64,000 bases of DNA from Diplonema papillatum. Lineage: Eukaryota > Euglenozoa > Diplonemea > Diplonemida > Diplonemidae. Location: positions 186,001-250,000 of the forward strand of contig JAPJBO010000192.1 of assembly GCA_030068145.1 (NCBI GenBank), written 5' to 3'. Positions 25,958 through 64,000 of this stretch are shown piece by piece (within the stretch, counting starts at the first letter, position 1; the number at the start of each line of letters is the position of its first letter). A program made the translations under genes and the position numbers. The notes under the pieces are model-generated. The model saw nothing but the letters and a program-made list of their open reading frames with translations. It searched no databases and was not told where the DNA came from.

Positions 25958-25969
25958 AAGCTCACCCGC

Positions 25970-26405: not shown

Positions 26406-26440
<35 letters not shown>

Positions 26441-26470: not shown

Positions 26471-26614
26471 TTAGGGATATGTGCGCTCACTTGGGAGGCA
26501 CTTTTCTCTTTTTTTGTACCTTCCTCCGAGGAGGCAGAAGAATGAACGCTTTTTATTTTTCTGGCTCCGTAGCTCGGGAGCCAGCGCCTACAGCTGTAAA
26601 CGAAACCCACACAC

Positions 26615-31400: not shown

Positions 31401-34400
31401 TTGGCATCTCCCGAACTGTAGAACTTGGCATCTCCCGAACTGTAGAACTTGGCATCTCCCGAACTGTAGAACTTGGCATCTCCCGAACTGTAGAACTTGG
31501 CATCTCCCGAACTGTAGAACTTGGCATCTCCCGAACTGTAGAACTTGGCATCTCCCGAACTGTAGAACTTGGCATCTCCCGAACTGTAGAACTTGGCATC
31601 TCCCGAACTGTAGAACTTGGCATCTCCCGAACTGTAGAACTTGGCATCTCCCGAACTGTAGAACTTGGCATCTCCCGAACTGTAGAACTTGGCATCTCCC
31701 GAACTGTAGAACTTGGCATCTCCCGAACTGTAGAACTTGGCATCTCCCGAACTGTAGAACTTGGCATCTCCCGAACTGTAGAACTTGGCATCTCCCGAAC
31801 TGTAGAACTTGGCATCTCCCGAACTGTAGAACTTGGCATCTCCCGAACTGTAGAACTTGGCATCTCCCGAACTGTAGAACTTGGCATCTCCCGAACTGTA
31901 GAACTTGGCATCTCCCGAACTGTAGAACTTGGCATCTCCCGAACTGTAGAACTTGGCATCTCCCGAACTGTAGAACTTGGCATCTCCCGAACTGTAGAAC
32001 TTGGCATCTCCCGAACTGTAGAACTTGGCATCTCCCGAACTGTAGAACTTGGCATCTCCCGAACTGTAGAACTTGGCATCTCCCGAACTGTAGAACTTGG
32101 CATCTCCCGAACTGTAGAACTTGGCATCTCCCGAACTGTAGAACTTGGCATCTCCCGAACTGTAGAACTTGGCATCTCCCGAACTGTAGAACTTGGCATC
32201 TCCCGAACTGTAGAACTTGGCATCTCCCGAACTGTAGAACTTGGCATCTCCCGAACTGTAGAACTTGGCATCTCCCGAACTGTAGAACTTGGCATCTCCC
32301 GAACTGTAGAACTTGGCATCTCCCGAACTGTAGAACTTGGCATCTCCCGAACTGTAGAACTTGGCATCTCCCGAACTGTAGAACTTGGCATCTCCCGAAC
32401 TGTAGAACTTGGCATCTCCCGAACTGTAGAACTTGGCATCTCCCGAACTGTAGAACTTGGCATCTCCCGAACTGTAGAACTTGGCATCTCCCGAACTGTA
32501 GAACTTGGCATCTCCCGAACTGTAGAACTTGGCATCTCCCGAACTGTAGAACTTGGCATCTCCCGAACTGTAGAACTTGGCATCTCCCGAACTGTAGAAC
32601 TTGGCATCTCCCGAACTGTAGAACTTGGCATCTCCCGAACTGTAGAACTTGGCATCTCCCGAACTGTAGAACTTGGCATCTCCCGAACTGTAGAACTTGG
32701 CATCTCCCGAACTGTAGAACTTGGCATCTCCCGAACTGTAGAACTTGGCATCTCCCGAACTGTAGAACTTGGCATCTCCCGAACTGTAGAACTTGGCATC
32801 TCCCGAACTGTAGAACTTGGCATCTCCCGAACTGTAGAACTTGGCATCTCCCGAACTGTAGAACTTGGCATCTCCCGAACTGTAGAACTTGGCATCTCCC
32901 GAACTGTAGAACTTGGCATCTCCCGAACTGTAGAACTTGGCATCTCCCGAACTGTAGAACTTGGCATCTCCCGAACTGTAGAACTTGGCATCTCCCGAAC
33001 TGTAGAACTTGGCATCTCCCGAACTGTAGAACTTGGCATCTCCCGAACTGTAGAACTTGGCATCTCCCGAACTGTAGAACTTGGCATCTCCCGAACTGTA
33101 GAACTTGGCATCTCCCGAACTGTAGAACTTGGCATCTCCCGAACTGTAGAACTTGGCATCTCCCGAACTGTAGAACTTGGCATCTCCCGAACTGTAGAAC
33201 TTGGCATCTCCCGAACTGTAGAACTTGGCATCTCCCGAACTGTAGAACTTGGCATCTCCCGAACTGTAGAACTTGGCATCTCCCGAACTGTAGAACTTGG
33301 CATCTCCCGAACTGTAGAACTTGGCATCTCCCGAACTGTAGAACTTGGCATCTCCCGAACTGTAGAACTTGGCATCTCCCGAACTGTAGAACTTGGCATC
33401 TCCCGAACTGTAGAACTTGGCATCTCCCGAACTGTAGAACTTGGCATCTCCCGAACTGTAGAACTTGGCATCTCCCGAACTGTAGAACTTGGCATCTCCC
33501 GAACTGTAGAACTTGGCATCTCCCGAACTGTAGAACTTGGCATCTCCCGAACTGTAGAACTTGGCATCTCCCGAACTGTAGAACTTGGCATCTCCCGAAC
33601 TGTAGAACTTGGCATCTCCCGAACTGTAGAACTTGGCATCTCCCGAACTGTAGAACTTGGCATCTCCCGAACTGTAGAACTTGGCATCTCCCGAACTGTA
33701 GAACTTGGCATCTCCCGAACTGTAGAACTTGGCATCTCCCGAACTGTAGAACTTGGCATCTCCCGAACTGTAGAACTTGGCATCTCCCGAACTGTAGAAC
33801 TTGGCATCTCCCGAACTGTAGAACTTGGCATCTCCCGAACTGTAGAACTTGGCATCTCCCGAACTGTAGAACTTGGCATCTCCCGAACTGTAGAACTTGG
33901 CATCTCCCGAACTGTAGAACTTGGCATCTCCCGAACTGTAGAACTTGGCATCTCCCGAACTGTAGAACTTGGCATCTCCCGAACTGTAGAACTTGGCATC
34001 TCCCGAACTGTAGAACTTGGCATCTCCCGAACTGTAGAACTTGGCATCTCCCGAACTGTAGAACTTGGCATCTCCCGAACTGTAGAACTTGGCATCTCCC
34101 GAACTGTAGAACTTGGCATCTCCCGAACTGTAGAACTTGGCATCTCCCGAACTGTAGAACTTGGCATCTCCCGAACTGTAGAACTTGGCATCTCCCGAAC
34201 TGTAGAACTTGGCATCTCCCGAACTGTAGAACTTGGCATCTCCCGAACTGTAGAACTTGGCATCTCCCGAACTGTAGAACTTGGCATCTCCCGAACTGTA
34301 GAACTTGGCATCTCCCGAACTGTAGAACTTGGCATCTCCCGAACTGTAGAACTTGGCATCTCCCGAACTGTAGAACTTGGCATCTCCCGAACTGTAGAAC

Positions 34401-36172
34401 TTGGCATCTCCCGAACTGTAGAACTTGGCATCTCCCGAACTGTAGAACTTGGCATCTCCCGAACTGTAGAACTTGGCATCTCCCGAACTGTAGAACTTGG
34501 CATCTCCCGAACTGTAGAACTTGGCATCTCCCGAACTGTAGAACTTGGCATCTCCCGAACTGTAGAACTTGGCATCTCCCGAACTGTAGAACTTGGCATC
34601 TCCCGAACTGTAGAACTTGGCATCTCCCGAACTGTAGAACTTGGCATCTCCCGAACTGTAGAACTTGGCATCTCCCGAACTGTAGAACTTGGCATCTCCC
34701 GAACTGTAGAACTTGGCATCTCCCGAACTGTAGAACTTGGCATCTCCCGAACTGTAGAACTTGGCATCTCCCGAACTGTAGAACTTGGCATCTCCCGAAC
34801 TGTAGAACTTGGCATCTCCCGAACTGTAGAACTTGGCATCTCCCGAACTGTAGAACTTGGCATCTCCCGAACTGTAGAACTTGGCATCTCCCGAACTGTA
34901 GAACTTGGCATCTCCCGAACTGTAGAACTTGGCATCTCCCGAACTGTAGAACTTGGCATCTCCCGAACTGTAGAACTTGGCATCTCCCGAACTGTAGAAC
35001 TTGGCATCTCCCGAACTGTAGAACTTGGCATCTCCCGAACTGTAGAACTTGGCATCTCCCGAACTGTAGAACTTGGCATCTCCCGAACTGTAGAACTTGG
35101 CATCTCCCGAACTGTAGAACTTGGCATCTCCCGAACTGTAGAACTTGGCATCTCCCGAACTGTAGAACTTGGCATCTCCCGAACTGTAGAACTTGGCATC
35201 TCCCGAACTGTAGAACTTGGCATCTCCCGAACTGTAGAACTTGGCATCTCCCGAACTGTAGAACTTGGCATCTCCCGAACTGTAGAACTTGGCATCTCCC
35301 GAACTGTAGAACTTGGCATCTCCCGAACTGTAGAACTTGGCATCTCCCGAACTGTAGAACTTGGCATCTCCCGAACTGTAGAACTTGGCATCTCCCGAAC
35401 TGTAGAACTTGGCATCTCCCGAACTGTAGAACTTGGCATCTCCCGAACTGTAGAACTTGGCATCTCCCGAACTGTAGAACTTGGCATCTCCCGAACTGTA
35501 GAACTTGGCATCTCCCGAACTGTAGAACTTGGCATCTCCCGAACTGTAGAACTTGGCATCTCCCGAACTGTAGAACTTGGCATCTCCCGAACTGTAGAAC
35601 TTGGCATCTCCCGAACTGTAGAACTTGGCATCTCCCGAACTGTAGAACTTGGCATCTCCCGAACTGTAGAACTTGGCATCTCCCGAACTGTAGAACTTGG
35701 CATCTCCCGAACTGTAGAACTTGGCATCTCCCGAACTGTAGAACTTGGCATCTCCCGAACTGTAGAACTTGGCATCTCCCGAACTGTAGAACTTGGCATC
35801 TCCCGAACTGTAGAACTTGGCATCTCCCGAACTGTAGAACTTGGCATCTCCCGAACTGTAGAACTTGGCATCTCCCGAACTGTAGAACTTGGCATCTCCC
35901 GAACTGTAGAACTTGGCATCTCCCGAACTGTAGAACTTGGCATCTCCCGAACTGTAGAACTTGGCATCTCCCGAACTGTAGAACTTGGCATCTCCCGAAC
36001 TGTAGAACTTGGCATCTCCCGAACTGTAGAACTTGGCATCTCCCGAACTGTAGAACTTGGCATCACCCGAACTGTAGAACTTGGCATCTCCCGAACTGTA
36101 GAACTTGGCATCACCCGAACTGTAGAACTTGGCATCTCCCGAACTGTAGAACTTGGCATCACCCGAACTTTG
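28498..36172 (+). repeat. 24-bp satellite, about 319 units, 7.7 kb
   Basis: Head-to-tail units of 24 bp, each composed of GAACTTGGCATCTCCC (16) plus GAACTGTA (8). From about 28617 to 36060 I see no variant unit; variants occur only in the first few units and the last five, where CACC replaces CTCC in alternate units. The same 16-bp word in a short diverged array occurs at 60600-60810 with homologous flanks on both sides. Because 24 is a multiple of three, several frames on both strands stay open for about 2,600 codons. This is a repeat, not a gene. Confidence 0.97.
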
Positions 36173-40468: not shown

Positions 40469-42034
40469 TCAGTCGTCGTCTTCTGCCTCCAGAACATCTT
40501 TCGCCGACTTGGGTCCCTTGCATGAATACCAGATAAGGCCCAAAGCTGCGAAGGCTAACAGACCGTACTGGAGGTACTGCATGACGTACGACAAGAAGCG
40601 AATCTTGGATACGTACGAAGCGTACAGAGTGTCCACTACAGTGTTCGCTGCGTACTGTCGAAAGGACATGGCGCAGAAAGACACGGCAGCCACCGAGGCA
40701 AGGAGGATGAGGATGGTGTTGAACACGAACGACGACATCAGCGTGCCACCGATCTTCATCGGGTGGATGGTGAAGACGAGAAAGTTGATGCCAACCTTCA
40801 TGCACCCGTTCACGGTGGCCCAAAGGAGGTAGAAGCTGAACGACCCGTACGCGAGGACGCCGAACAGGGAAAACGTATTGTCCAACTCAGTGAACATGTT
40901 GTTCAGCAGCGGGTGGAAGTCGAGGGTGTTGTAGACGATGATGTGACAGATCCACATCGCGGACCAAACCACGCAAAAGATCCCCAGCAAGAGCCTCCCG
41001 TAGATGATGAAGGGCGAGGATAATTTCGCGAACTCCGACTTCTGGTTGTACGCCTGATTCCGCTGATGCTCCTTCTCCAGCTTCTCGACGCAAACCTGCA
41101 GGGCGCTGACCTTCTTCTGCTGCGGCTTGTTCAGCTTCAGCCGTTCCGTCAACTTGTCCGATACGGCGAGCAGAGCCCGAGTTTCGGCCTTGATCCTTTC
41201 TTTCTCCCTCGCGAAGCTTTCCCGAGTGACCGCCGTCAGTTTGTTCTCGTAAAAAGAGTAGCACATATCCAGCGGAAGCGACGAGAGACCGACGCCCCCG
41301 AAGACGACGAACAGGATCCATCCGATGCACGTCAGCACCGCGACCGTCGCAACGAAAAGCGAGACGTCGACGTGCAGGTCGCCGCTGCTCTTGACGCATG
41401 CCTGCGAGTACCCGGCGGCTTCGAGTCTGCTGACGTCGTCGCAGTCTTCGCCGCCCGGCGTTAAGAGGCGCGGGCACGTGTACAGTTCGACCGTTTCCGG
41501 AAGACACTTGTAGCCCTTATACGGAATGATGGCCTCGTTGACCCCGACTGCGAAGTACATCAACAGGAGGATGCCTATGAAGATGATCAGCGTGATCCCC
41601 GTCCAGCAAAACGCCGACGTCAGCTGCGTGGTGATGATGCGGAACTGCGACGCGTCGGTGTCAGTGTACTCGCGGGTGATTTTGGCTCCGGCCTGGTCTG
41701 GGTCCCACGCCTCGTAGTAGTAGAGGGCGAACGGGAGAACGATGACGACCATTCCGATGATGGTCCAGAGGGTTATCTGCCACAGGAGCGCAAGGTCAAG
41801 CTCCCCGCCGACGTCGTCTCGAATCGTCGGGTCTTTCCTGTTGGCCACGTCGAAGGGGAGCAGCAGCGACACAAACGCCGCGAGACTCAGCCCGAACACA
41901 ACGACGGTCTTCGGGAAGTACCCGCCTCCTTGGTACTTCTCCTCCGGGTCCAGGTACACCCGCAGGAGCCGGATGTTGATGATGATCGTCACCGCCACGA
42001 CCACGATCGCCACGACGATGAGAAACCAGTTCAT
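40469..42034 (-). CDS. LIMR/LMBR1-family integral membrane protein
   Basis: Single-exon ORF of 521 codons with a clean ATG at 42034. The N-terminal 70 residues carry the hallmark of plant and protist LIMR proteins: a first membrane helix (WFLIVVAIVVVAVTIIINI), then YFPKTVVVFGLSLAAF and LLPFDVANR. About nine hydrophobic helices are visible, with the family motif GVGLSSLPLD near residue 245. A charged coiled coil (about 260-330) separates the N- and C-terminal membrane halves. It ends in an acidic tail (EAEDDD). Length is typical of the family. Related animal proteins include lipocalin-receptor-like LMBR1 and the lysosomal cobalamin exporter LMBRD1, but substrate and location cannot be assigned here. 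Appears intact; no intron needed. Confidence 0.95.
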   Translation of the reverse strand: MNWFLIVVAIVVVAVTIIINIRLLRVYLDPEEKYQGGGYFPKTVVVFGLSLAAFVSLLLPFDVANRKDPTIRDDVGGELDLALLWQITLWTIIGMVVIVLPFALYYYEAWDPDQAGAKITREYTDTDASQFRIITTQLTSAFCWTGITLIIFIGILLLMYFAVGVNEAIIPYKGYKCLPETVELYTCPRLLTPGGEDCDDVSRLEAAGYSQACVKSSGDLHVDVSLFVATVAVLTCIGWILFVVFGGVGLSSLPLDMCYSFYENKLTAVTRESFAREKERIKAETRALLAVSDKLTERLKLNKPQQKKVSALQVCVEKLEKEHQRNQAYNQKSEFAKLSSPFIIYGRLLLGIFCVVWSAMWICHIIVYNTLDFHPLLNNMFTELDNTFSLFGVLAYGSFSFYLLWATVNGCMKVGINFLVFTIHPMKIGGTLMSSFVFNTILILLASVAAVSFCAMSFRQYAANTVVDTLYASYVSKIRFLSYVMQYLQYGLLAFAALGLIWYSCKGPKSAKDVLEAEDDD

Positions 42035-42122
42035 TTTGGGTTCTTTCTTTTTTTTCCTACCTTTCGCTGTGTGTCTCTTGCTCTGGGGTTTTTCTTTCCC
42101 CGCCCCTCCTTCCTTTCCCCGC

Positions 42123-42870
42123 TGTGTGCGTGTTCAGCTACGGGTGACCCCTGTCGCGGAATATAACCCATGCTTTTCGCATCCTCATGACACAGCTGAG
42201 GTTCCTGCCGACTGCCCGCGGTGTTACCGCAGCTCTAGCTTCCTGCCCATGTGCTGCATGGTACATGCCGCCGGGGGTACCGTCGCCTTTTGCATGCGCA
42301 GCATCGAGGTGCATCATGCTTCGCACATCTCGCTGTCGCATTCCTGGCTCGCCGTCGGTCGAGACCGCTGACTGCTTTTGCCCTTCTCCTGTTCCCTTCC
42401 CTTCCACTCGTGTGTGCGTGTGGATTTCAAGTATTATTATGGGTGGTCCCCTGTCGCGGAATAGCCATGCCTTTTAGCATTCTTCATGACACAGCTGAGG
42501 TGCCTGCCGACTGCCCGCAATGTTACTGCAGCCTCGTTTGATCTGGGCTTCCTGCCCATGTGCTGCATGGTACAGCATCGCGGTGCTCGTGCTTCGCACA
42601 TCTCGCTGTCTCATTTCCGGCTCGCCTCACCGTCGGTCGAGACCGCTGACTGCTTCTGCCCTTCTCCTGCTCCCTTCCCTTCCACTCGTGTGTGCGTGTG
42701 GGATTCAATTACGGGTGGTCCCCTGTCGCGGGATAGCCATGCTCATTTTAGCATTCTCACGCCACAGCTGAGGTTCCTGCTGACTGCTCGCGGCGCCCAC
42801 GCGGTGTTCGGAACTGCAGCTTCGTTTGATCTGGGCTTCCTGCTTCGTGGCCCATGTGCTACAGGCTGGC
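42123..42870 (+). repeat. Tandem repeat of about 280 bp, 2.6 units, upstream of LIMR gene
   Basis: Three anchors TGTGTGCGTGT at about 42123, 42411 and 42689, each followed by CCCTGTCGCGG, CACAGCTGAGG and TCCTGCCCATGTGCTGC blocks, define units of about 280 bp with 10-15 percent differences. The array starts 90 bp upstream of the LIMR start codon, so it occupies the likely promoter region. Confidence 0.85.
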
Positions 42871-48950: not shown

Positions 48951-48961
48951 GGGCAAATAAG

Positions 48962-49614
48962 TAAGCTGTAGAACTTCAACACGCGTAAAGACTGGCGACA
49001 CTATCGAGTTGCGGCGCGCACAGCGACAGCTGCTTCGTCGAAGCTGATTTTGTAGTGCGGGCCGTCCCGCTCGAGTTTGAGGAGGTACCGGGCTATGTTT
49101 GGGTACCCCTCGAAGACAGTCGGGTCCATCAGCTTGAGCTGGTCTACCTCGGTCGCGAACAGGAAGTCGGCCAGCGTCATCGAGCGGCCGAGCACGAAGT
49201 CCTGCCGCGAGAGCAGCGCGTCGAACTTCCCCAGCAGCGGCCGCACCGCGGCGACGCCGTTCCGCCTGCGCCGGTCCCGCTCGTCGTACGCGGCCGCCCG
49301 CAGCCACGGCAGGAACGCGTCGGTCGTGAACGAGCGCGCCTCCTTCGCGTGCTTCCTGAAGTACTTGTGCAGCTTCGCTTTGCCGGCCGCGCCAACAGCC
49401 AGGATCCCGTCGGCACGCGCCAGGTACTCGAGCATAACCGAGCTCTCGTCCGAGACCACTCCAGCGTCGAGACCAACACCCCCGGGTGCTCGCCAGGCAT
49501 TCGGGCCGGCGGTAGTTCGGAGAGAAGTCACAGGTCCCAAAACCCAAAGTGCCTTGAAAGCCTTAACCCGCATGAAAAGGGCCAAGCGAGCTACACTTCG
49601 CTTCGCCCGCCCCT
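48962..49614 (-). pseudogene. Duplicate of the last GST exon and 3' flank
   Basis: 48962-49614 repeats 49616-50170 at high identity, including about 40 bp after the stop codon, so it is a tandem copy of the terminal exon. The C-terminal GST half is intact from SSVMLEYLARADG to AVRAATR and stop. The N-terminal half is shortened and frameshifted: the VPTLEDDELYLG part is lost and replaced by out-of-frame sequence. Upstream there is no full thioredoxin-like fold, so it is a downstream remnant rather than another domain. Confidence 0.75.
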
Positions 49615-49654: not shown

Positions 49655-51035
49655 CTAGCGAGTTGCGGCGCGCACAGCGACAGCTGCTTCGTCGAAGCTG
49701 ATTTTGTAGTGCGGGTCGTTCCGCTCGAGTTTGAGGAGGTACCGGGCTATGTTTGGGTACCCCTCGAAGACAGTCGGGTCCATCAGCTTGAGCTGGTCGA
49801 CCTCGGTCGCGAACAGGAAGTCGGCCAGCGTCATCGAGCGGCCGAGCACGAAGTCCTGCCGCGAGAGCAGCGCGTCGAACTTCCCCAGCAGCGGCCGCAC
49901 CGCGGCGATGCCGTTCCGCCTGCGCCGGTCCCGCTCGTCGTACGCGGCCGCCCGCAGCCACGGCAGGAACGCGTCGGTCGTGAACGAGCGCGCCTCCTTC
50001 GCGTGCTTCCTGAAGTACTCGTGCAGCTTCGCTTTGCCAGCCGCGCCAACAGCCAGGATCCCGTCGGCACGCGCCAGGTACTCGAGAATAGCCGAGCTCT
50101 CGCCCAGGTACAACTCGTCATCCTCCAGCGTCGGGACCAACCCCTCTGGGTGCTTCGCCAGGTATTCGGGCCGGCGGTGGTCTGCCAGGTCGAAGTCGAT
50201 GCTGCGGAAAATCACGTCTTTTCCGGCCTGCGCCGCGTACCACCGGCACGCCCGCGACGGGGAAGAAACCGGGTTGCAGTTCAACACGGCAGACCCGCGG
50301 CTCCTCGGTGCCAGCGGAGTGGCGGATCGAGTCAACGGGGAGGACGAGAGGAGCCCGTCGTCGGCGGATGAAGACGACGGCAGAGTTCGGGTCACAGCCG
50401 ATACAGCGTCGGCGAAGGATTGGTAGGACGCAGCGTAGCCCGGGACGTCTCGCGCGACGCGGTTCAGGTAGCGGGAAAGGTTCGGGTACGAGTCGAACAC
50501 CAGCGGGTCCACGAGCTTCAGCTGGTCGACCTCTGCAGTGAACAAAAAGTCTGCCACCGACAGCGAGTTGCCGACGATGAAGTCCTGGCGCCCGAGTCGG
50601 GCGTCGAACTCCGCGAGCCAAGGCCGCACGGCGGCGATGCCGGTCGCCCGGCGGGAGTCTCGCTCGGACAGGGACCGAGCGGTGACCCACGGCCAGAAGC
50701 AGTCCTCGGTCAGCTTCCGCGCCTCCTTCGCGTGCTTCCGGAAGTACTCGTGCAGCTTCGCCGCCCGGGCCGGGCCGACCTGCTGCACGCTGTGGTCGCG
50801 GCCGAGGTACTCCGCGATCGCCGACGGCTGGCTCAAAAACAGGTCCCCGTCCTCGAGCGTCGGCACCGCGCCGTCCGGGTGAGCCCGGGACAGGTAGTCC
50901 GGCCTCCGGTGCTCGTCGAGCCACAGGTCGCTGTCTTTGACCGCCAGCGGCTGGCGCGTGTACTCGGCCAGCCACCGGCACGCCCGCGACGGTTGCGACA
51001 GCGGGTGTGTCTTGAGGACCGGCGTCGTCGAACCG
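49655..51035 (-). CDS. Poly-GST gene, last exon (two theta-like GST domains, stop)
   Basis: Encodes two complete GST domains: one from about 51018 (LSQPSRACRW...VPTLEDGDLFLSQPSAI) and the last from about 50288 (VSSPSRACRW...VPTLEDDELYLGESSAI), joined by a Ser/Pro-rich linker of about 40 residues, then a TAG stop at 49655. The frame is also open upstream to 51289, but that part is encoded by a 107-bp minisatellite and is taken as intron. The acceptor (GGTACAG, 51037-51036) gives an exon in phase with the donor at 52358. The last domain keeps the canonical Glu-Ser pair that binds the glutathione gamma-glutamyl group. No other C-terminal domain is present. Confidence 0.8.
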
Positions 51036-51037
51036 CT

Positions 51038-51830
51038 GTACCGTGAAGTGTGTCTGTACGAGCATTTGAGTGCAAAAGTGTGCACGGTGGAGTCCAGCCT
51101 CAGAAGAGAAAGGTGGAGCCGCTGTAACTGCAGAGAGTATGAGGGTATGCGGAAGTGTGTCTGTACGAGCATTTGAGTGCAAAAGTGTGCACGGTGGAGT
51201 CCAGCCTCAGAAGAGAAAGGTGGAGCCGCTGTAACTGCAGAGAGTATGAGGGTATGCGGAAGTGTGTGTGTACAAGCATTTGAGTGCAAAAGTGTGCACG
51301 GTGGAGTCCAGCCTCAGAAGAGAAAGGTGGAGCCGCTGTAACTGCAGAGAGTATGAGGGTATGCGGAAGTGTGTGTGTACAAGCATTTGAGTGCAAAAGT
51401 GTGCACGGTGGAGTCCAGCCTCAGAAGAGAAAGGTGGAGCCGCTGTACCTGCAGAGAGTATGAGGGTATGCGGAGGTGTGTGAATACTAGCATTTGAGTG
51501 CAAAAGTGTGCACGGTGGAGTCCAGCCTCAGAAGAGAAAGGTGAAGCCGCTGTACCTGCAGAGAGTATGAGGGTATGCGGAGGTGTGTGAATACTAGCAT
51601 TTGAGTGCAAAAGTGTGCACGGTGGAGTCCAGCCTCAGAAGAGAAAGGTGGAGCCGCTGTAACTGCAGAGAGTATGAGGGTATGCGGAAGTGTGTGAATA
51701 CGAGCATTTGAGTGCAAAAGTGTGCACGGTGGAGTCCAGCCTCAGAAGAGAAAGCTGGAGCCGCTGTACCTGCAGAGAATACGAGGGTATGCGGAAGTGT
51801 GTGTGTGAGTACGAGCCGATGAGGCTGGGG
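51038..51830 (+). repeat. 107-bp minisatellite in GST intron 2
   Basis: About 7.4 units of 107 bp (anchors AGTGCAAAAGTGTGCACGG and CAGCCTCAGAAGAG). Each unit carries the complement of GGTACAGCGG or GTTACAGCGG, the same bases that form the exon's real acceptor at 51036, so the array seems to have grown from the splice-site region. Confidence 0.95.
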
Positions 51831-52003
51831 TTCAAATGCGCCCGCCACACTGAACCCAGATTTACCTGTGGTTCGTGGATGCGGCACATTTACCTCCGTT
51901 GAGACTGGAATATTGTTGCGATAGCGGGGAGTCATGCGGCATGCTGATGAGTACCACATTATTTTGCGTATTACTTACAAAGCAGGTGGTTATGCAAAAA
52001 ATA
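51830..52003 (+). mobile_element. SINE-like repeat family S, copy E
   Basis: Contains the CCAGATTTACCTGTG block, the GTTGCGATAGCGGGGAGTCA plus GCATGC palindrome block seen in copy B, and the 3' AAAGCAGGTGGTTATGC plus A-run. It lies in GST intron 2. Confidence 0.75.
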
Positions 52004-52006
52004 CTA

Positions 52007-52072
52007 GGCCGCGCAAACAGCGCCTCGAACTGACCGAGCAGCGGCCGCACCGCCGCGACGCCCGCCGCAAGA
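52007..52072 (-). pseudogene. GST exon fragment inside intron 2
   Basis: About 65 bp nearly identical to 52605-52668, which codes for RPLLGQFEALFAR in the adjacent GST domain. It is too short to encode a domain and lies directly after the family S copy. Confidence 0.7.
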
Positions 52073-52357
52073 GATATTCGATGAAGGGAAACAGGGAGTG
52101 TAAGACTCCACGGGTAGGATATAGGGGACTAGTCCTCTTTCCTACAGTTTAAGTTCGCTTAGGAACCCGGGGGTTAAAGCTTCCGTGTGACTATTGGCGA
52201 ATGGAATCCTCTATCGTATACTAGTATGCGTATCGTATCTGCAGTCGTGGCAGTACGAAAGCTTGTGTTGGTTACCTATTGCCGACTATTCGACTAGCTT
52301 TAGAGCGCATGTGGTTGTTGTGTTTCCACTTGAGAATGTAAGTTCGTGAAGGCAGAC

Positions 52358-55300
52358 CTGCGGGGGGATGAGTACGCGCTGCGGGGCGCCAGCGTCGCGT
52401 CGAGGGAGCGGACCGCGGCGGCGAGCGACTCGTGCGACGCTGCGTAGTCGGGGATCTCGCGGGAGATCCGGCCGAGGTACCGCGCGATGTTCGGGTACGC
52501 GTCGAAGACCGACGGGTCGACACACTGCAGCTGCCCAACCTCCGGCGCGAACAGGAAGTCAGCCAGGGAAAGCGAGCCACCGGGCAAGACGTAGTCCTGC
52601 CGCGCAAACAGCGCCTCGAACTGACCGAGCAGCGGCCGGACAGCCGCGAGCCCCGCCGCCCGCCGCTCGTCGCGCTGGTCGTGGGTCTTCGAAGCGAGCC
52701 ACGGCGCGAAGCAGTCGGTCGTGAACCGGCGCGCCTCCTTCTCGTGCTTCCGGAAGTACTCCCGCAGCTTCGCCTTGCCGCCAGCCCGCTCGGGTAGGAT
52801 GGGATGGTTCTGCGCCAGGTACTCGAGAATCGCGGGGGCTTGCCCGAGGTAGAAGTCGCCTTCCTCCAGCGTCGGCACGCCGCCTTCCGGGTGACGCGCG
52901 AGGTATCCCGGCAGCCGGTCGTCTCCCGCCCACACGTCGACGGTCTTGATCGCGACGTTCTTGTTCGCGTACTTGATGAACCACCGGCACGAGCGGGACG
53001 GCTGCGAGACGGGGTGGCTGTTCAACGTCGGCACCACCGCCGGCCTCCGTGGCGGCATCGTGCCGTCCAACGACCGGACGAAGTCCCCCAACGCCGCGTA
53101 TGACGCTGCGAAACCTGGTATGTCCCTCGCGACTCGGTTCAAGTATCTAGCGATGTTCGGGAATGAGTCAAACAAAGCGGGCTCCATGTACTTCAGCTGG
53201 TCGACCTCCGGAGCGAACAGGAAGTCGGCGAGCGTCAGCGAGCTCCCGACGATGTAGTCCTGCATGCTCAGCTTGTCGTCGAATCTTTGCAGCAGCGCGC
53301 GAACGGAGGAGAGCCCCCTTGACTTCGCCTCGTCCCGTTCTTCCCACGTTTTCGCCGTGATCCACGGCCAGAAGCAGTCGGTGGTGAACCGTCTCGCCTC
53401 GACGCCGTGGCCCTGGAAGTATTCCTGCAGCCTCGCCCGCTCACTGGGGGTCTGCGGGGCGATCGGGTGTGTCTTCGCAACGTGTTCGAGGATCAAAGAA
53501 GGCTCGCTCAGGTACAATGAGGCGTCCTCAAGGGTAGGCACAGCACCGTCGGGGTACCTGCTGAGGTAGTCTGGTCGGCGGTGTTCCTGAGCCCACAGGT
53601 CGATGTTTCGGAGTTTGACCGGCTTCTGCGTGTAGTTGACCAACAAACGGCAGGACCTTGACGGCTGCGACGCGGGGTGGACGTTCAGCGTCGGGATCGA
53701 TCGGCGGGGGGGCAATGCACTATCCAACGCACGGATGGCGTCGCCCAATCCATCGTAGCATGCCGTGTATCCGGGTGCTTCGCGAGCGATTCTACCAAGG
53801 TACCTAGCGATGTTCGGGAATGAGTCAAACAAAGCGGGCTCCATGTACTTCAGCTGATCGACCTCCGGAGCGAACAGGAAGTCAGCCAGCGACAGCGAGG
53901 TACCGACGATGTAGTCCTGCATGCTCAGCTTGTCGTCGAATCTTTGCAGCAGCGCGCGAACGGAGGAGAGCCCCCTTGACTTCGCCTCGTCCCGTTCTTC
54001 CCACGTTTTTGACGTGATCCACGGCCAGAAGCAGTCGGTGGTGAACCGTCTCGCCTCGACGCCGTGGCCCTGGAAGTATTCCTGCAGCCTCGCCCGCTCA
54101 CTGGGGGTCTGAGGAGCGATTGGATGGTTCTTCGCAACGTGTTCGAGGATCAAGGGTGGCTCACTCAGATACAAAGAGGCGTCCTCAAGGGTAGGCACAG
54201 CACCGTCGGGGTACCTGCTGAGGTAGTCGGGGCGGCGGTGCTCCTGAGCCCACAGATCGATGTTTCGAATTTTGACCGGCTTCTGCGTGTAGTCGACCAG
54301 CCACCGGCACGATCTTGACGGCTGCGACGCGGGATGAACGTTCAGCGTCGGGGTCGTTCGGCGGGGGGGCAATGCACTATCCAACGCACGGATGGCGTCG
54401 CCCAATCCATCGTAGCATGCCGTGTATCCGGGTGCTTCGCGAGCGATTCTACCGAGATATCTAGCGATGTTCGGGAATGAGTCAAACAAAGAGGGTTCCA
54501 TGTACTTCAGCTGGTCGACCTCCGGAGCGAACAGGAAGTCAGCCAGCGACAGCGAGGTACCGACGATGTAGTCCTGCATGCTCAGCTTGTCGTCGAATCT
54601 TTGCAGCAGCGCGCGAACGGAGGAGAGCCCCCTTGACTTCGCCTCGTCCCGTTCTTCCCACGTTTTTGACGTGATCCACGGCCAGAAGCAGTCGGTGGTG
54701 AACCGTCTCGCCTCGACGCCGTGGCCTTGGAAGTATTCCTGCAGCCTCGCCCGCTCACTGGGGGTCTGGGGAGCGATCGGATGGTTCTTCGCAACGTGTT
54801 CAAGGATCAAGGGTGGCTCGCTCAGATACAAAGAGGCGTCCTCAAGGGTGGGCACAGCACCGTCAGGGTACCTGCTGAGGTAGTCTGGTCGGCGGTGTTC
54901 CTGAGCCCACAGGTCGATGTTTCGGATTTTGACCGGCTTCTGCGTGTAGTCGACCAGCCACCGGCACGATCTCGACGGCTGCGACGCGGGGTGGACGTTC
55001 AGCGTCGGGGTCGTTCGGCGGGGGGGCAATGCACTATCCAACGCACGGATGGCGTCGCCCAATCCATCGTAGCATGCCGTGTATCCGGGTGCTTCGCGAG
55101 CGATTCTACCAAGGTACCTAGCGATGTTCGGGAACGAGTCAAACAAAGCGGGTTCCATGTACTTCAGCTGATCAACCTCCGGAGCGAACAGGAAGTCAGC
55201 CAGCGACAGCGAGGTACCGACGATGTAGTCCTGCATGCTCAGCTTGTCGTCGAACCTTTGCAGCAGCGCGCGAACGGAGGAGAGCCCCCTTGACTTCGCC

Positions 55301-58174
55301 TCGTCCCGTTCTTCCCACGTTTTTGACGTGATCCACGGCCAGAAGCAGTCGGTGGTAAACCGTCTCGCCTCGACGCCGTGGCCCTGGAAGTATTCCTGCA
55401 GCCTCGCCCGCTCACTGGGGGTCTGGGGAGCGATCGGATGGTTCTTCGCAACGTGTTCGAGGATCAAGGGTGGCTCACTCAGATACAAAGAGGCGTCCTC
55501 AAGGGTAGGCACAGCACCGTCGGGGTACCTGCTGAGGTAGTCGGGGCGGCGGTGCTCCTGAGCCCACAGATCGATGTTTCGAATTTTGACCGGCTTCTGC
55601 GTGTAGTCGACCAGCCACCGGCACGATCTTGACGGCTGCGACGCGGGATGAACGTTCAGCGTCGGGGTCGTTCGGCGGGGGGGCAATGCACTATCCAACG
55701 CACGGATGGCGTCGCCCAATCCATCGTAGCATGCCGTGTATCCGGGTGCTTCGCGAGCGATTCTACCGAGATATCTAGCGATGTTCGGGAATGAGTCAAA
55801 CAAAGAGGGTTCCATGTACTTCAGCTGGTCGACCTCCGGAGCGAACAGGAAGTCAGCCAGCGACAGCGAGGTACCGACGATGTAGTCCTGCATGCTCAGC
55901 TTGTCGTCGAATCTTTGCAGCAGCGCGCGAACGGAGGAGAGCCCCCTTGACTTCGCCTCGTCCCGTTCTTCCCACGTTTTTGACGTGATCCACGGCCAGA
56001 AGCAGTCGGTGGTGAACCGTCTCGCCTCGACGCCGTGGCCTTGGAAGTATTCCTGCAGCCTCGCCCGCTCACTGGGGGTCTGGGGAGCGATCGGATGGTT
56101 CTTCGCAACGTGTTCAAGGATCAAGGGTGGCTCGCTCAGATACAAAGAGGCGTCCTCAAGGGTAGGCACAGCACCGTCAGGGTACCTGCTGAGGTAGTCT
56201 GGTCGGCGGTGCTCCTGAGCCCACAGGTCGATGTTTCGGATTTTGACCGGCTTCTGCGTGTAGTCGACCAGCCACCGGCACGATCTCGACGGCTGCGACG
56301 CGGGGTGGACGTTCAGCGTCGGGGTCGTTCGGCGGGGGGGCAATGCACTATCCAACGCACGGATGGCGTCGCCCAATCCATCGTAGCAAGCCGTGTATCC
56401 GGGTGCTTCGCGAGCGATTCTACCAAGGTACCTAGCGATGTTCGGGAATGAGTCAAACAAAGCGGGCTCCATGTACTTCAGCTGATCGACCTCTGGAGCG
56501 AACAGGAAGTCAGCCAGCGACAGCGAGGTACCGACGATGTAGTCCTGCATGCTCAGCTTGTCGTCGAATCTTTGCAGCAGCGCGCGAACGGAGGAGAGCC
56601 CCCTTGACTTCGCCTCGTCCCGTTCTTCCCACGTTTTCGCCGTGATCCACGGCCAGAAGCAGTCGGTGGTGAACCGTCTCGCCTCCACGCCGTGGCCCTG
56701 GAAGTATTCCTGCAGCCTCGCCCGCTCACCGGGGGTCTGCGGGGCGATTGGATGGTTCTCCGCGACGTGCTCGAGGATCGCCGGAGGGTCGCTGAGGTGC
56801 AAGGCTGCTTCCTCAAGCGTAGGCACAGCACCGTCGGGGTACCTGCTGAGGTAGTCCGGCCGGCGGTGCTCCTGGGCCCAGAGGTCGATGTTCCGGATTT
56901 TGACCGGCTTCTGCGTGTAGTCGACCAGCCACCGGCACGATCTCGACGGCTGCGACGCGGGGTGGACGTTGAGGGTGGGGATCGTGCGACGAGGAGGCAA
57001 CGTCCCGTCTACAGAGCGGACGGCGTCGCTCAACGATTCGAAGCACGCTGTGTACCCAGGCGCGTCGTGGGTGACCCTGTTGAGGTAACGCTCGATGTTC
57101 GGGTACGAGTCGAAGACGTGGGGGTCCATGTGCTTCAATTGGTCGACTTCCGTCGCGAATAAGAAGTCGGCCAAGCTCAAGGAATGCCCCAGCACGTAGT
57201 TCTGCCTCTCGAGGAGAGAGTCATACTTCCCGAGCAGCGGCCGGGCGGCGCGGAGCCCCGACGCCGCCGCATCGTCGCGCGCTTCCCACGTCTTCGCCGT
57301 GATCCACGGCCAGAAGCAGTCGGTCGTGAAGGACCGCGCGTCCCGCGCATGCGTCCGGTAGTACTCCTTCAACTCGCCCGCCGCCGCCGGGCTGGTCGGA
57401 AGGATCGCGTGGTCCGCCGCGAGATACTCCAAGATCGCGGACGCCTGCCCGATGCGCAAAGCGGCGTCCTCCAGCACCGGCACGTCGCTGTCCGGGTGCC
57501 TCGATAGGTACTCCGGCCGCCTGTGCTCGTGCGTCCAGAGGTCGACGTTTCTAACGTTGACGCTCTTCCGCGCGTAGTCAGTAAACCAACGGCAGGCCCG
57601 CGACGGTTGCGAAAGGGGGTGGCTGTGCAGGGTGGGCGTGGATCTTCTCGGGGGAAGCCGGCTGTCAACGAGTCGGATGGCATCGCGGAGGGACTCGAAA
57701 TTGGCGGCGTAGCCCGGGACTTCTCGGGAGATCCGGGCCAGGTAGCGGGAGAGGCTCGGGTAGGAGTCGAGCACCGTCGGGTCGACGCACTGGAGCTGGT
57801 CCAATTCGGGGGCGAACAGGAAGTCGGCCAGGGTGAGGGTGCTGCCGAGGATGTAGTCCTGCCGCGCGAGCACCGACTCGAACGTCGCGAGCAGCGGCCG
57901 CACGGCGGCGATGCCCGACGCCTTCCGCGCGTCCCTCTCCTCCCACGTGCCGGCCGCGAGCCACGGCCAGAAGCAGTCGTCGGTGAACCGCTTCGCGTCG
58001 GCCCGGTGCGTCCGGAAGTACTCCTGCAACGCAGCGGCTTGCGACGGGGTGGCCGGCGCGATCGGGTGGTTCCGCGCGAGGTGCTCCAGGATCGGCGGGC
58101 CTTGGCTCAGGAACAGCTCGTCCTGCTCCAGCGTCGGGATCGAATCCGGGCGTCGTGCGAGGTATTCAACTCTC
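52358..58174 (-). CDS. Poly-GST gene, large central exon (nine GST domains)
   Basis: An open frame of 5,817 bp from the acceptor AACAG at 58176-58175 to a donor CGCAG/GTCTGCC at 52358/52357. It starts inside one GST domain (RVEYLARRPDSIPTLE), then carries eight complete domains beginning near 57635, 56977, 56318, 55661, 55005, 54347, 53690 and 53030. Each has the theta-class start S-Q-P-S-R-A/S-C-R (compare LVSQPSRA of human GSTT2), a cis-Pro VPTLE loop, an HEYF/QEYF helix and an LADFLFA-EVDQL helix near the C-terminus. Domains 3-8 are a 657-bp tandem amplification. Linkers are short and Pro/Arg-rich (LPPRRTTPTL). No signal peptide or membrane segment. Glutathione-dependent chemistry is the family function; whether all domains are active is doubtful. 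Confidence 0.9.
53040..56985 (-). repeat. 657-bp coding tandem repeat, six GST units
   Basis: Six consecutive units of exactly 657 bp (219 codons) of very high identity. Alternating markers (MEPALF/MEPSLF; AAGGTACCTA/CGAGATATCT) recur every 1,314 bp, showing that a dimer was duplicated after the monomer. Confidence 0.95.
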
Positions 58175-58383
58175 CTGTTTTTTACAGTGAAAGTTCGCTT
58201 GAAACTAAGGGGTTTTAGTGCTAAAGTCTTGTAAAGATGCTTTTTTTTGTGTTTCCGGCAATAATCGCAAAGTCGGTTGCCTACGACGGCGGTCTTTCTG
58301 ATTGTTGTTCAGAGTACCGTATTAGGTCGGTGGTATAGAATCGCAGCTGATCTGCTGCGTGGACCTGCAATTGCAGTGTAGGG

Positions 58384-60320
58384 TTGATATGGACTCGAAC
58401 GTCGCGAGCAGCGGCCGCACGGCGGCGACGCCCGACGCCTCCGCGCGTCCCTCTCCTCCCACGTGCCGGCCGCGAGCCACGGCCAGAAGCAGTCGTCGGT
58501 GAACCGCTTCGCGTCGGCCCGGTGCGTCCGGAAGTACTCCTGCAGCGCAGCGGCTTGCGACGGGGTGGCCGGCGCGATCGGGTGGTCCCGCGCGAGGTGC
58601 TCCAGGATCGGCGGGCCTTGGCTCAGGAACAGCTCGTCCTGCTCCAGCGTCGGGATCGAATCCGGGCGTCGTGCGAGGTATTCAACTCTCCTGTTTTTTA
58701 CAGTGAAAGTTCGCTTGAAACTAAGGGGTTTTAGTGCTAAAGTCTTGTAAAGATGCTTTTTTTTGTGTTTCCGGCAATAATCGCAAAGTCGGTTGCCTAC
58801 GACGGCGGTCTTTCTGATTGTTGTTCAGAGTACCGTATTAGGTCGGTGGTATAGAATCGCAGCTGATCTGCTGCGTGGACCTGCAATTGCAGTGTAGGGT
58901 TGATATGGACTCGAACGTCGCGAGCAGCGGCCGCACGGCGGCGACGCCCGACGCCTCCGCGCGTCCCTCTCCTCCCACGTGCCGGCCGCGAGCCACGGCC
59001 AGAAGCAGTCGTCGGTGAACCGCTTCGCGTCGGCCCGGTGCGTCCGGAAGTACTCCTGCAGCGCAGCGGCTTGCGACGGGGTGGCCGGCGCGATCGGGTG
59101 GTCCCGCGCGAGGTGCTCCAGGATCGGCGGGCCTTGGCTCAGGAACAGCTCGTCCTGCTCCAGCGTCGGGATCGAATCCGGGCGTCGTGCGAGGTATTCA
59201 ACTCTCCTGTTTTTTACAGTGAAAGTTCGCTTGAAACTAAGGGGTTTTAGTGCTAAAGTCTTGTAAAGATGCTTTTTTTTGTGTTTCCGGCAATAATCGC
59301 AAAGTCGGTTGCCTACGACGGCGGTCTTTCTGATTGTTGTTCAGAGTACCGTATTAGGTCGGTGGTATAGAATCGCAGCTGATCTGCTGCGTGGACCTGC
59401 AATTGCAGTGTAGGGTTGATATGGACTCGAACGTCGCGAGCAGCGGCCGCACGGCGGCGACGCCCGACGCCTCCGCGCGTCCCTCTCCTCCCACGTGCCG
59501 GCCGCGAGCCACGGCCAGAAGCAGTCGTCGGTGAACCGCTTCGCGTCGGCCCGGTGCGTCCGGAAGTACTCCTGCAGCGCAGCGGCTTGCGACGGGGTGG
59601 CCGGCGCGATCGGGTGGTCCCGCGCGAGGTGCTCCAGGATCGGCGGGCCTTGGCTCAGGAACAACTCGTCCTGCTCCAGCGTCGGGATCGAATCCGGGCG
59701 TCGTGCGAGGTATTCAACTCTCCTGTTTTTTACAGTGAAAGTTCGCTTGAAACTCAGAGGTTTTAGTGCTAAAGTCTTGTAAAGATGCTTTTTTTTGTGT
59801 TTCCGGCAATAATCGCAAAGTCGGTTGCCTACGACGGCGGTCTTTCTGATTGTTGTTCAGAGTACCGCACTAGGTCGGTGGTTAGAATCGCAGCTGATCT
59901 GCTGCGTGGACCTGCAATTGCAGTGTAGGGTTGATATGGACTCGAACGTCGCGAGCAGCGGCCGCACGACGGCGACGCCCGACGCCAACGCGCGTCCCTC
60001 TCCTCCCAAGTGCCGGCCCGTGCGAGGTATTCAACACTCCTGTTTATTTAGAGTGCAAGTTTGCTCGAAACTCAGGGGTTTTAGTGTTGGAATCGCAAAG
60101 TCGGTTGCCTATGACGGCGTTCTTTCTGATTGTTGTTCAGAGTACCGTATTAGGTCGGTGGTATAGAATCGCAGCTGATCTGCTGCGTGGACCTGCAATT
60201 GCAGTGTAGGGTTGATATGGACTCGAACGTCGCGAGCAGCGGCCGCACGGCGGCGACGCCCGACGCCACCGCGCGTCCCTCTCCTCCCACGTGCCGGCCG
60301 CGAGCCACGGCCAGAAGCAG
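58384..60320 (-). repeat. 516-bp tandem repeats carrying GST pseudo-exons
   Basis: Units start at about 58384, 58900, 59416, 59931 (partial) and 60212 (partial), each a copy of the 5' part of the central exon with its acceptor plus about 200 bp of intron. All units share a one-base deletion relative to the real exon (GCCTCCGCG for GCCTTCCGCG), so they are frameshifted pseudo-exons derived from one ancestor. The two partial units on the right are interrupted. Confidence 0.9.
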
Positions 60321-60329
60321 AGATTGTTT

Positions 60330-60866
60330 TTGGACTAGATAATAGTGCGGAGCAAGCTTCTTTCCCCCTGCCAAAATGCATAGGGGGTGGGCGTCGGCCT
60401 TCAGGCCAGTAGGCCCGGGTTCGAACCCCGCCCATCACACTTTTCCGGTCGAAGATTGTTTTCGAGGTTTGTTGCGTTCCGGGGTCTAATGTGCCCGAAA
60501 TTTGCGTTTTTTGCGGAGGTTTTCAGTATCTCGCGGTATTTGGGTCACCCCGGGAAACGGAGTCGGGGGGGGGTCCGGGGGGGTCTCCCGGGTACTGGCG
60601 CCGAACTTGCCATTACAGGCCAAACTTGCTACCACACGCCGAACTCAGCATCACCAGACCCGAACTTTGCTTCGCCCGAACTTAGCTTTGCCGAACTTTG
60701 CTTCACCAGAACTTAGCATCGCCCGAACTTAGCATCACTCGAACTTAGCGTCGTCCGAACTGAGCTTCACCAGAACTTAGCATCGCCCGAACTTAGCTTC
60801 ACCCGAACTTTAACTGCTGCCTCCAGTCTCGCCACGCGCCGGCCGTAGCCGAGCGCACGTACTTGT
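60330..60866 (+). mobile_element. Dispersed element with short 16-bp array (parent form of the satellite)
   Basis: 60445-60600 and 60800-60830 are homologous to the left and right flanks of the 28.5-36.2 kb satellite (shared CCCGGGTACTGG and CCCGAACTTTAACTGCTGCC). Between them about a dozen diverged 16-bp words of the type GAACTTAGCATCACCC replace the 24-bp units. At 60390-60440 a GGGTTCGAACCC box lies in a tRNA-like setting. The element interrupts a 516-bp unit, whose missing tail resumes at 60867. Confidence 0.75.
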
Positions 60867-60973
60867 GTTTCCGGCAACAATCGCAAAGTCGGTTGCCTAT
60901 GACGGCGTTCTTTTTGATTGTTGTTCAGAGTACTATGTTAGGTTGGTGGCATAGAATCGCAGCTGATCTCATC

Positions 60974-61095
60974 AGGGGAGAAACAATACAACTACAAAGA
61001 GGGTAAACACAGGCACACCCAGAGTTACCTGTGATTCACCTCCTTTGAGATTTCGAAACTGGCACCTCCTCAGTATTTCCCACAAAGCACGTGCT
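60974..61095 (+). mobile_element. SINE-like repeat family S, partial copy F
   Basis: Contains GGGGAGAAACAATACAACTA, a shortened middle block and the 3' block ending AAAGCACGTGCTT plus A-run. It is directly followed by a full copy. Confidence 0.7.
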
Positions 61096-61498
61096 TAAAA
61101 AATACTCGAACGACTGCCTTGTGCTCATTTCGAAGGAGGCCATAGGGGGAGAAAAATACAACCTCAAAGTGGGTCTTTTTGTTGAACGCTTCCGCCCGCC
61201 ACTAAACTCAGATTTACCTGTGTTTCGTGTGGGCTACAGCACATCTACCTCCTTTGATCTTGGTATTGTTGCGATAGTGGGGAGTCATCGGCATGCCGAT
61301 GAGTACCACACTATGCCTGCCTTTCGCTACGTGACACCGGATGGGTCACTCTTCCGTCGTGGTGCCCGCGACGGCTGCTGCTGGTAGCTTGTGACAAGTT
61401 CGTCGTCAGATCCGGAATGGGAGTCCTCCTTTGATTCTTCGTAACTGGCAGCCTCCTCAAGCATTTCATACAAAAAGGCAGGTGCTTATACAACAAAA
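61096..61498 (+). mobile_element. SINE-like repeat family S, longest copy B
   Basis: About 400 bp with the 5' block (AATACTCGAACGACTGCC), the middle block, a palindrome TCATCGGCATGCCGATGA near 61285, an extra 130-bp segment and the 3' block ending in GGCAGGTGCTTATAC plus A-rich end. The shorter copies lack the segment between the middle and 3' blocks. No coding capacity; A-rich 3' end suggests retroposition. Confidence 0.75.
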
Positions 61499-61529
61499 AA
61501 TACAGAGAGAGAGAGAGAGTTGTAAATAC

Positions 61530-64000
61530 CTGTGGTCCTGCGCCCAGAGGTCGACAGTGCGGTTGGTGACGTTTTTCCGAGCGTAGCTGGCTAGCAGCAG
61601 GCAGGACCGAGACTCCTGGGAGACGGGGCTCGTGTTCAGCACGGGGACCGACGCGACGACGCGGCGGGCGGGCAGGGTGCGATCAACGGCGCTCACGGCC
61701 TCGGTCAGCGAGTCGAGCTGGGCGGCGTACCCGGGGACTTCGCGGGCGATGCGGCTTAGGTACCGCGCGATGTTCGGGTAGGAGTCGAAGACGTTCGGGT
61801 CGACAAGCCGCAGCTGGTCTACCTCCGGGGCGAAGTGGAAGTCCGCAAGCGTCAGGGTGCCCCCCAGCACGTACTCCCTACGTTCCAAGAGCTGGTCGAA
61901 GGAGAGCAGCAGGTCCCTCACGGACGCGATGCCCGTCCGCTTCCGTTCGTCCCGCTCGTCCCACGTCCTCGACGTGATCCACGGCCAGAAGCACTCGTTC
62001 GTAAACCGCCTCGCCTGCTTCGGATGCTTCCTGAAGTACTCGTGCAGCCTTGCTTTGACTCCTGGGTTCGTTGGTAAGATCGCGTGGTCCTTCGCGAGGT
62101 ACTCGAGGATCGCGGGCGTCTCGCCTAGGAACAAGTCGTCGTGCTCGAGCGTAGGCACCGCGCCCTCCGGGTGCTTGGCGAGGTAGTCCGGGCGGCGGTG
62201 CTCGTCGGCCCAGAGGTCGACGTGCCGGCAGTTGACGCCGAGCCTCGCGAAGTCGGAGAACCAGCGGCACGAGCGCGATCCCTGCGAAATCGGGTGCGTG
62301 TTCAGCACCGGCGTCGAGACCACACGGCGCGGCGGCAGCGTGCGGTCCACAGCACGCACGGCGTCTCCCAGGGAGTCAAAGGACGCAGTATACCCGGGGG
62401 CTTCCCTGGCGACACGGGCTAGGTACCGCTCGATATTTGGGTACGGGCCGAGCACCAGCGGGTCCATGTACTTCAGCTGGTCGACCTCCGGCGCGAACAG
62501 GAAGTCAGCGAGCGATAGCGAGCCGCCCAGGATGAAGTCCTGGCGAGCCAGCACATCGTCGAACCGGCCCAGCAGCCCCCGCACGGCGGTCAACCCGGCG
62601 GCCTTCCGCTCGTCCCTGTCCTCCCACGTCCTCGAGAGGATCCACGGCGAGAAGCAGTCTGTCGAGAACCGCCGCGCCTCCCGGACGTGCTGTCTGAAGT
62701 ACTCCCGCAGCGCGGTCTCATGGCTGGTGGTTGGGGGGTGCAGGTAGTGGTCGGCCGAGAGCTTCTCGAGGATCGCGGAGGCTTCGCGGAAAACCAGCCC
62801 GTCGTCGTCTAGTGTGGGGACCACAGCGTCGGGGTGGGTCACGAGGTAGTCCGGCCTGTGGTGGTCTAGCGCGAGGGCATCGGCCGGGCGGATGGTCACG
62901 TCCTTCTTCGCGAAGTCGGCGAACCACCGGCAGGCCCGCGACGGCTGCGAGATCGGGTGCGTCCGCAGCACCGGCGGCGGCCGCCGCCGCGGCGGCTCCC
63001 GGATCACGATCGGCGACAGCGGCGGCTCGGGCTCCCCCATCGCGCGCACGGCGCGCTCGAGGGCGTCGTACACTTTTGTGTACCCTGGCACGTCGCGTGC
63101 GAGGCGGTTCAAGTAGCGGGCGATGTTCGGGAACGAATCGAACACCGTCGGGTCCATGATCCGCAGCTGGTCGACTTCCGGGGCAAACAGGAAGTCAGCC
63201 AGCGTCAGCGAATTGCCGAGCACAAAATCCTGCCGCGCGAGGAGATCGTCGAACTGCAAAAGCAACGGCCGCACCTGCGCGAGGCCGTTGGTCTTCGCGC
63301 TCGCTCTTGTGTCGTACGTCCGCGCGACCAGCCACGGCCAGAAGCACTCGGTCGTGAACCGGCGCGCCTCCTTCGCGTGCTTCCTGAAGTACTCGTGCAG
63401 CTTCGCACGGCGCCGCGCGTCCCGCGGCAGGATCGCGTGGTTGTGCGACAAAAACTCGAGGATCGCGGCGCTCTCGCCGAAGTACACGTCGCCGTCCTCC
63501 AGCGTCGGCACCAGCCCGTCTGGGTGCCGCGCGAGGTACGTCGACCTCCGGTGCTCGTCAGCGAAGATGTCGACCGTGCGCACCGATGCCGGCTCGCCCG
63601 TGTACTCGAGCAACCACAGGCACGCTCTCGACGGCGAAGAGACGGGGTGCGTGTTGACCACCGGCACCGACCGCGGCCGCTCGACGGCCCGAGGAGGAGG
63701 CGGGGGAACAGGCACCGGTAACGGCGTCGAGGGCGCGGCGTACGGGACTTCCGTCGCCGGGTGGGCCCGCAAAGCGGACCCGAGCCGGTCGAACGACTCC
63801 GCGTACGACGGCACTTCCCTCGCGAACCTCCCCAGGTACCGGTCCACGTCCGGATGAGCGTCGAACACGTACGGATCCATGTACCGCAGCTGGTCGACCT
63901 CTGGGACGAGGAGGAAGTCGGCGAGAGTCAGCGAGTTTCCGACGGCGAAGTCCTGCCTCCGGAACTTGTCGTCGAACCGCGCGAGCAGCGGCCGGGCGGC
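61530..64000 (-). CDS. Poly-GST gene, 5' exon in window (open at edge)
   Basis: The frame is open from the window edge at 64000 to the donor at 61530. It holds the C-terminal half of one GST domain (AARPLLARFDDKF...LADFLLVPEVDQL), then three complete domains starting near 63661, 62972 and 62312, and the first 38 residues of a fifth (VLNTSPVSQESRSC...), which continues in the central exon. Pro-rich linkers separate domains. Units here differ from each other by 40-50 percent, so they are old compared with the central amplification. The domain at 63661 keeps the canonical GES glutathione-binding pair. Start codon, N-terminus and promoter lie outside the window. Confidence 0.88.

Follow-up and report, generated by a model that had tools for sequence, protein, structure and literature searches.

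We analysed a 64,000-nt stretch of DNA from Diplonema papillatum, a marine unicellular flagellate (assembly GCA_030068145.1, contig JAPJBO010000192.1, hereafter C192, positions 186001–250000; "the window") and found that the minus strand of its window positions 49,655–64,000 appears to belong to one nuclear gene encoding 15 consecutive glutathione S-transferase (GST) units of the Ser type, joined by short linkers and interrupted by two predicted introns. The catalytic Ser is conserved throughout the array, and the residue expected to hold the gamma-glutamyl moiety of glutathione is replaced in most of the units, which suggests a function beyond simple detoxification for a fold that is ordinarily found as one small protein. 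With a probability of about 0.5, we suggest that the protein is a chain of beads on a string in which ordinary glutathione sites lie mainly near the ends and the inner sites are altered.

Gene structure of the array

A preliminary description of this DNA, made from the letters alone, had reported three minus-strand open frames with GST domains, and these were found in place: 61466–64000 (open at the window edge), 52300–58308 (2,002 codons), and 49655–51313 (552 codons). The search with Pfam models that it had proposed gave matches in all three, with GST_N/GST_C stretches numbering 3/4 in the first frame, 8/9 in the middle frame, and 2/2 in the last. We number the units u00–u14 from the N-terminus; the window edge cuts u00, leaving 14 complete units inside the window, so that the earlier estimate of at least 14 units stands for the window and rises to 15 for the whole gene. 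The predicted layout within the window is as follows.

61530–64000, minus strand: exon A, in-window part (2,471 nt), with the end of u00, the whole of u01–u03, and the first part of u04
58175–61529, minus strand: predicted intron 1 (GT-AG), inside u04, containing incomplete tandem copies of the exon B start
52358–58174, minus strand: exon B (5,817 nt), with the remainder of u04, u05–u11, and u12 minus its linker end
51036–52357, minus strand: predicted intron 2 (GT-AG), in the u12–u13 linker, containing a 107-bp minisatellite
49655–51035, minus strand: exon C (1,381 nt), with the linker end, u13, u14, and the stop codon

As had been claimed, the two introns join the frames in phase: the in-window exons (2,471 + 5,817 + 1,381) give 9,669 nt, or 3,222 codons, with a single stop at the very end, and both introns would interrupt a codon after its second base (AG/G, Arg; AG/C, Ser). 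The intron 1 junction is well supported, as the rejoined u04 aligns with the other units with one residue missing. The intron 2 junction is less certain than that of intron 1; since it falls in a linker, its basis is phase and the GT-AG dinucleotides, and its acceptor adjoins the minisatellite. GT-AG introns, as well as gene pieces tandemly repeated beside genes, are described in passages of the D. papillatum genome paper (PMC10161547).

Exon A continues beyond the window end (C192:250000) in a frame that extends to C192:251266 and has its first ATG at C192:251212, placing the start of the frame 1.2 kb past the window. With the two predicted introns removed, the full coding length would be 3,683 + 5,817 + 1,381 = 10,881 nt, corresponding to a protein of 3,626 amino acids and 410 kDa with the predicted start MSSPS. 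The GST units are preceded by a head of 276 amino acids (16% Ser, 14% Pro, 21 SP/TP motifs); when a 404-aa piece comprising the head and part of u00 was compared with Pfam, only the GST part matched (E up to 0.01). A motif scan of minus-strand frames of at least 100 codons across C192:249001–289000 returned only the frame 249002–251266 and no further GST units upstream.

The proposal that this is one coding array was borne out. A row of separate single-domain genes was rejected because there are no stops or starts between units within the exons; no Met lies near the unit starts (15 residues before to 8 after) at 14 of the 15 units, the sole one being in the tail of u11.

The units are GSTs of the Ser type

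The window contains 14 occurrences of an N-terminal Ser motif, every one on the minus strand. The motifs are spaced by 218–244 residues, slightly wider than the 215–240 first given for these regular units, and six successive spacings are 219 residues each. The units combine a thioredoxin-like N-domain with an all-helical C-domain, as in cytosolic GSTs, and the predicted structure of one unit has the GST fold (predicted local distance difference test, pLDDT, 95.8).

With a Ser near their N-terminus the units are Ser-type GSTs, a catalytic motif common to the theta, delta, and epsilon classes. The original label theta-like was partly apt: it fits the motif, but by sequence the nearest solved proteins are insect delta GSTs, and by fold insect delta/epsilon GSTs come first, human theta trailing them narrowly at a distance of about 2 Z units or less. 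These proteins share the fold and the catalytic Ser with the units but are single-domain, about 200–270 residues long, and about 17–25% identical to u07.

Conservation and change in the active site

To compare active sites, we aligned the units with delta GSTs and relatives. The 21 relatives were chosen by us and comprise 17 units from databases or the genome (from P0002–P0006 and P0093–P0095 and from frames on contigs C556, C95, C1338, and C101) and four bacterial GSTs (P0007, P0009, P0017, and P0020); P0001, the window's own protein, and P0096, a GST-like end on a longer zinc-finger protein, were excluded. All 15 units have Ser at the position of the delta-GST Ser, which we take to be catalytic, and all 15 keep the cis-Pro. 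At position 65, the presumed gamma-glutamyl-binding site equivalent to Ser65 of delta and Ser67 of theta enzymes, three units (u00, u01, and u14) have Ser and one (u03) has Thr, with Pro in seven, Ala in three, and Gly in one of the remaining units. Among the relatives it is Ser in 19 of 21, the exceptions being units two and three of P0095. The Glu-Ser pair expected of a gamma-glutamyl-binding site is present in u00, u01, and u14 and not across the whole array. Pro in place of Ser takes away both the hydroxyl and a backbone NH, and the units with Pro at position 65 would therefore bind glutathione weakly.

Two other explanations of the site were tried and set aside. As to Cys-based catalysis, all 15 units do have Cys15, yet the model places this residue within helix 1 (residues 10–22), off the catalytic position. 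Trypanothione as the thiol that would explain the altered site is disfavoured, diplonemids having been reported to have lost it.

Origin, recent duplication, and selection

In a tree of 35 rows, for which units were cut to 215 residues and the second unit of P0095 (P0095_2) was left out for its long branch, all 15 units group in a single clade (100/99), with a single-domain GST encoded on C556 as its sister (98/95). The tree supports the derivation of the array from a single-domain GST similar to the one on C556 through successive in-frame duplications. This D. papillatum protein is 45% identical to u03, but it has one unit only and possesses the E-S glutathione motif. P0095 (D. papillatum DIPPA_70170), P0093, and P0094 (the latter two diplonemid-like) are, like the array, multi-unit GSTs; they start with MGC where the array has the predicted start MSSPS, have only 3, 3, and 2 units, respectively, and retain the gamma-glutamyl Ser in six of these eight units. 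The seven of their units included in the tree fall outside the clade of 15.

The genome searched contained 2,910 contigs (271.4 Mb) and is not exactly the assembly described in passages of PMC10161547 (6,181 contigs, 280.3 Mb). No second copy of the array was found in these 2,910 contigs, and a GST_N search placed at least 13 matches on C192 among the 50 matches listed. Matches on other contigs reached at most 45% identity over a whole unit, with fragments at 54% (C863) and 46% (an upstream copy on C556); other single GST frames are also present in the genome. At C556:34484–35756 part of the beginning of the sister GST is repeated immediately upstream of it, and this gene too seems to be bounded by repeats. 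After the DIPPA_70170 locus (C101:388289–391658) comes another GST frame, which has an MGC start of its own. At C863:36505–36981 a u13-like piece lies in frame with sequence that by eye is transposon-like, which suggests that a fragment of a GST is borne by a mobile element or has inserted into one.

Several repeated segments lie within and beside the exons.

53695–56322, minus strand: u07–u10, two tandem 1,314-bp two-unit blocks with 11 differing sites, the most recent duplication seen
58247–60320, minus strand: three 516-bp copies, plus fragments, of the exon B start and the intron upstream of it, read as non-coding
51045–51806, minus strand: 107-bp minisatellite within intron 2 (about 7 copies), next to the acceptor of exon C
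48961–49552, minus strand: a second, degraded u14 end, lying downstream of the stop codon

At the DNA level, u07/u09 and u08/u10 are 99.7% and 98.6% identical, and u07 and u08 differ at 19 silent sites and one replacement site. Comparing the 14 in-window units two by two, we obtained ratios of replacement to silent substitution rates (dN/dS) under 1 for all 91 pairs (from 0 to 0.65; these values are rough, many dS being high) and of 0 to 0.19 for the 15 pairs among u06–u11. Because the changes between the newest units are nearly all silent, we consider the protein to be under selection. The three 516-bp copies have a common frameshift relative to the exon, and the exons are open throughout. 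The copy of the u14 end is 98% identical over 300 nt and about 70% identical, ungapped, over 270 nt at its upstream end. Flanking copies like the tandem gene pieces reported in PMC10161547 are seen here too, in intron 1 and downstream of u14.

Proposed role of the chain

In the arrangement that we favour, the roughly 410-kDa protein would consist of the 276-residue Ser/Pro-rich head followed by 15 Ser-type GST units acting as independent beads. Units with Ser65 would be ordinary glutathione binders; most of the inner ones would bind glutathione weakly or accept other, probably hydrophobic or electrophilic, ligands. Taken as a whole, the chain could be a scaffold or a multivalent binder of high capacity, with a few canonical glutathione sites rather than 15 equal enzymes. 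Two results weigh most against other roles: a purely structural role is disfavoured because the catalytic Ser is invariant, and 15 equal enzymes are disfavoured because Ser65 is lost.

Several observations weigh against this proposal. Ten of the 15 units still have Glu at position 64, and position 175, which is conserved in the relatives and lies outside the site, has changed even more than position 65. Units two and three of P0095 likewise lack Ser65, and its loss is thus not special to the array; moreover, glutathione binding could survive the loss of a single Ser. Because the catalytic Ser is invariant despite heavy divergence at silent sites, it can be argued that the chemistry is kept in every unit. 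Finally, the lack of confident packing between units in a three-unit model (predicted TM-score, pTM, 0.42) comes from a 10-row alignment, and stable pairing of units is possible. Pairing of units through a contact between E70 and R101 was an idea only.

A division of labour along the chain is possible but tentative. The end units would be ordinary glutathione sites, and the inner units, expanded and then held constant by selection, would combine the catalytic Ser with a pocket redesigned to take a different ligand or thiol. The chain would thereby act as a multivalent sponge for ligands or electrophiles, perhaps anchored by the Ser/Pro-rich head.

We consider it rather unlikely that the protein is a catalytic array in which neighbours pair as in GST dimers and all 15 units use glutathione with high local activity. 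The preliminary description had offered such a uniform, self-dimerising detoxification array, and this idea is weakened; the other roles that it named, a ligand or haem sink and a structural protein in the manner of S-crystallins, are possible. In favour of retained chemistry is the catalytic Ser, which together with the cis-Pro is found in 15 of 15 units. That the newest duplication copied two units together also fits with pairing, and families expanded specifically in D. papillatum are reported, in passages of PMC10161547, to take part in oxidative stress protection. That 11 of the 15 units have exchanged the gamma-glutamyl Ser for Pro, Ala, or Gly speaks against equal use of glutathione, and the lack of confident packing in the model speaks against paired neighbours.

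Somewhat less likely again is a structural or tethering repeat protein in which the GST fold serves as a rigid bead of a long chain and the Ser/Pro-rich head attaches the protein or acts as a regulated tail. Such a role would suit the regular period, with its run of 219-residue spacings, and a head rich in SP/TP motifs, but recent duplication partly accounts for the regularity. Likewise, the three database relatives with 2–3 units begin with MGC, which we take to be a likely acylation signal, yet the predicted start of the gene itself is MSSPS. Above all, a bare bead needs neither an active-site Ser nor a cis-Pro, and both are invariant.

The remaining alternatives concern the gene rather than the protein. 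If intron 2 did not exist, the locus would hold a 13-unit gene ending at an in-frame stop at 52300–52302 and a separate u13–u14 gene. The exon B frame does continue past the donor to that stop, but the only Met before u13 in the u13–u14 frame lies in minisatellite sequence and the GT-AG sites preserve phase, and we regard two genes as improbable. An assembly artefact or pseudogene, which the near-identity of u07/u09 and u08/u10 and the junk partial copies adjoining exons might suggest, is very improbable given that the newest copies differ mainly at silent sites, that frameshifts affect the copies in the intron whereas the exons stay open, and that the genome is reported, in passages of PMC10161547, to be haploid with very few variants and assembled from long reads.

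Comparison with known tandem GSTs

Leishmania TDR1 (4AGS) resembles the array in being euglenozoan and in carrying tandem GST domains on a single chain, and it was the top Foldseek match of the three-unit model; however, the TM-score of 0.39 (target) and root-mean-square deviation of 18 Å indicate that its domain arrangement is not matched. Going by the title of a 2012 report by Fyfe, TDR1 is reportedly linked to the activation of antimonial prodrugs. S-crystallins, which are GST-derived and have a non-enzymatic role, differ from the array in being single-domain. TDR1 has two domains, forms a trimer, and is listed among Cys-type GSTs in passages of PMC4138524, whereas the array has 15 units, with Ser at the catalytic position in place of the Cys of the tandem GSTs TDR1 and Tc52. 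TDR1 was absent from the best 60 of 274 and of 340 sequence matches.

In protein searches, the 2,002-aa frame had no match at E 0.001 among 7,989 scored candidates of about 1,100–3,500 residues, a range that does not reach the 3,626-aa protein. Exon A gave four matches among 7,990 scored and a unit profile 92 among 7,998 scored; of the latter 92, 20 were used in the structure alignment, and 12 of the 96 matches in all served as relatives in the active-site comparison. A viral relative was considered, and none of 40 pattern-matching stretches in viral contigs was confirmed. The open-licence literature, including passages of PMC4974336 and PMC4138524, yielded no description of a protein with more than two GST domains, and the words "glutathione" and "transferase" have no occurrences in the main text of PMC10161547. 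Within these protein searches, limited in length and number of candidates, and open-licence literature searches, we found no description of a tandem GST longer than three units. In Euglenozoa, GSTs of two or three domains are either known or annotated; 15 units are extreme.

Other features of the window

A 24-bp satellite of about 320 copies (99% matches) occupies 28493–36169 and is open in several frames, which accounts for spurious frames of about 2,500–2,700 codons. Transposable-element frames lie at 1557–12534, including a reverse transcriptase (1557–4157) and an RNase H (11164–12534), with long AC microsatellites at 1867–2270 and 6430–6862. Two long ankyrin-repeat frames of 798 and 553 codons are on the minus strand at 22880–28047, and a further frame at 2–880 is ankyrin-like by eye. 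An LMBR1-like membrane protein frame at 40469–42133 (minus strand) has the same direction as the GST gene, and an isolated fragment of about 190 nt at 43373–43559 matches eukaryotic large-subunit rRNA.

Implications

Because D. papillatum is reported, in passages of PMC10161547, to be amenable to gene replacement, the array can be tested in its own organism. GSTs have been studied as small dimers, and a 15-unit chain that is under selection and has repeatedly changed a glutathione-binding residue in its inner units would be a natural experiment on the GST fold. The array also widens the range of tandem GSTs in Euglenozoa.

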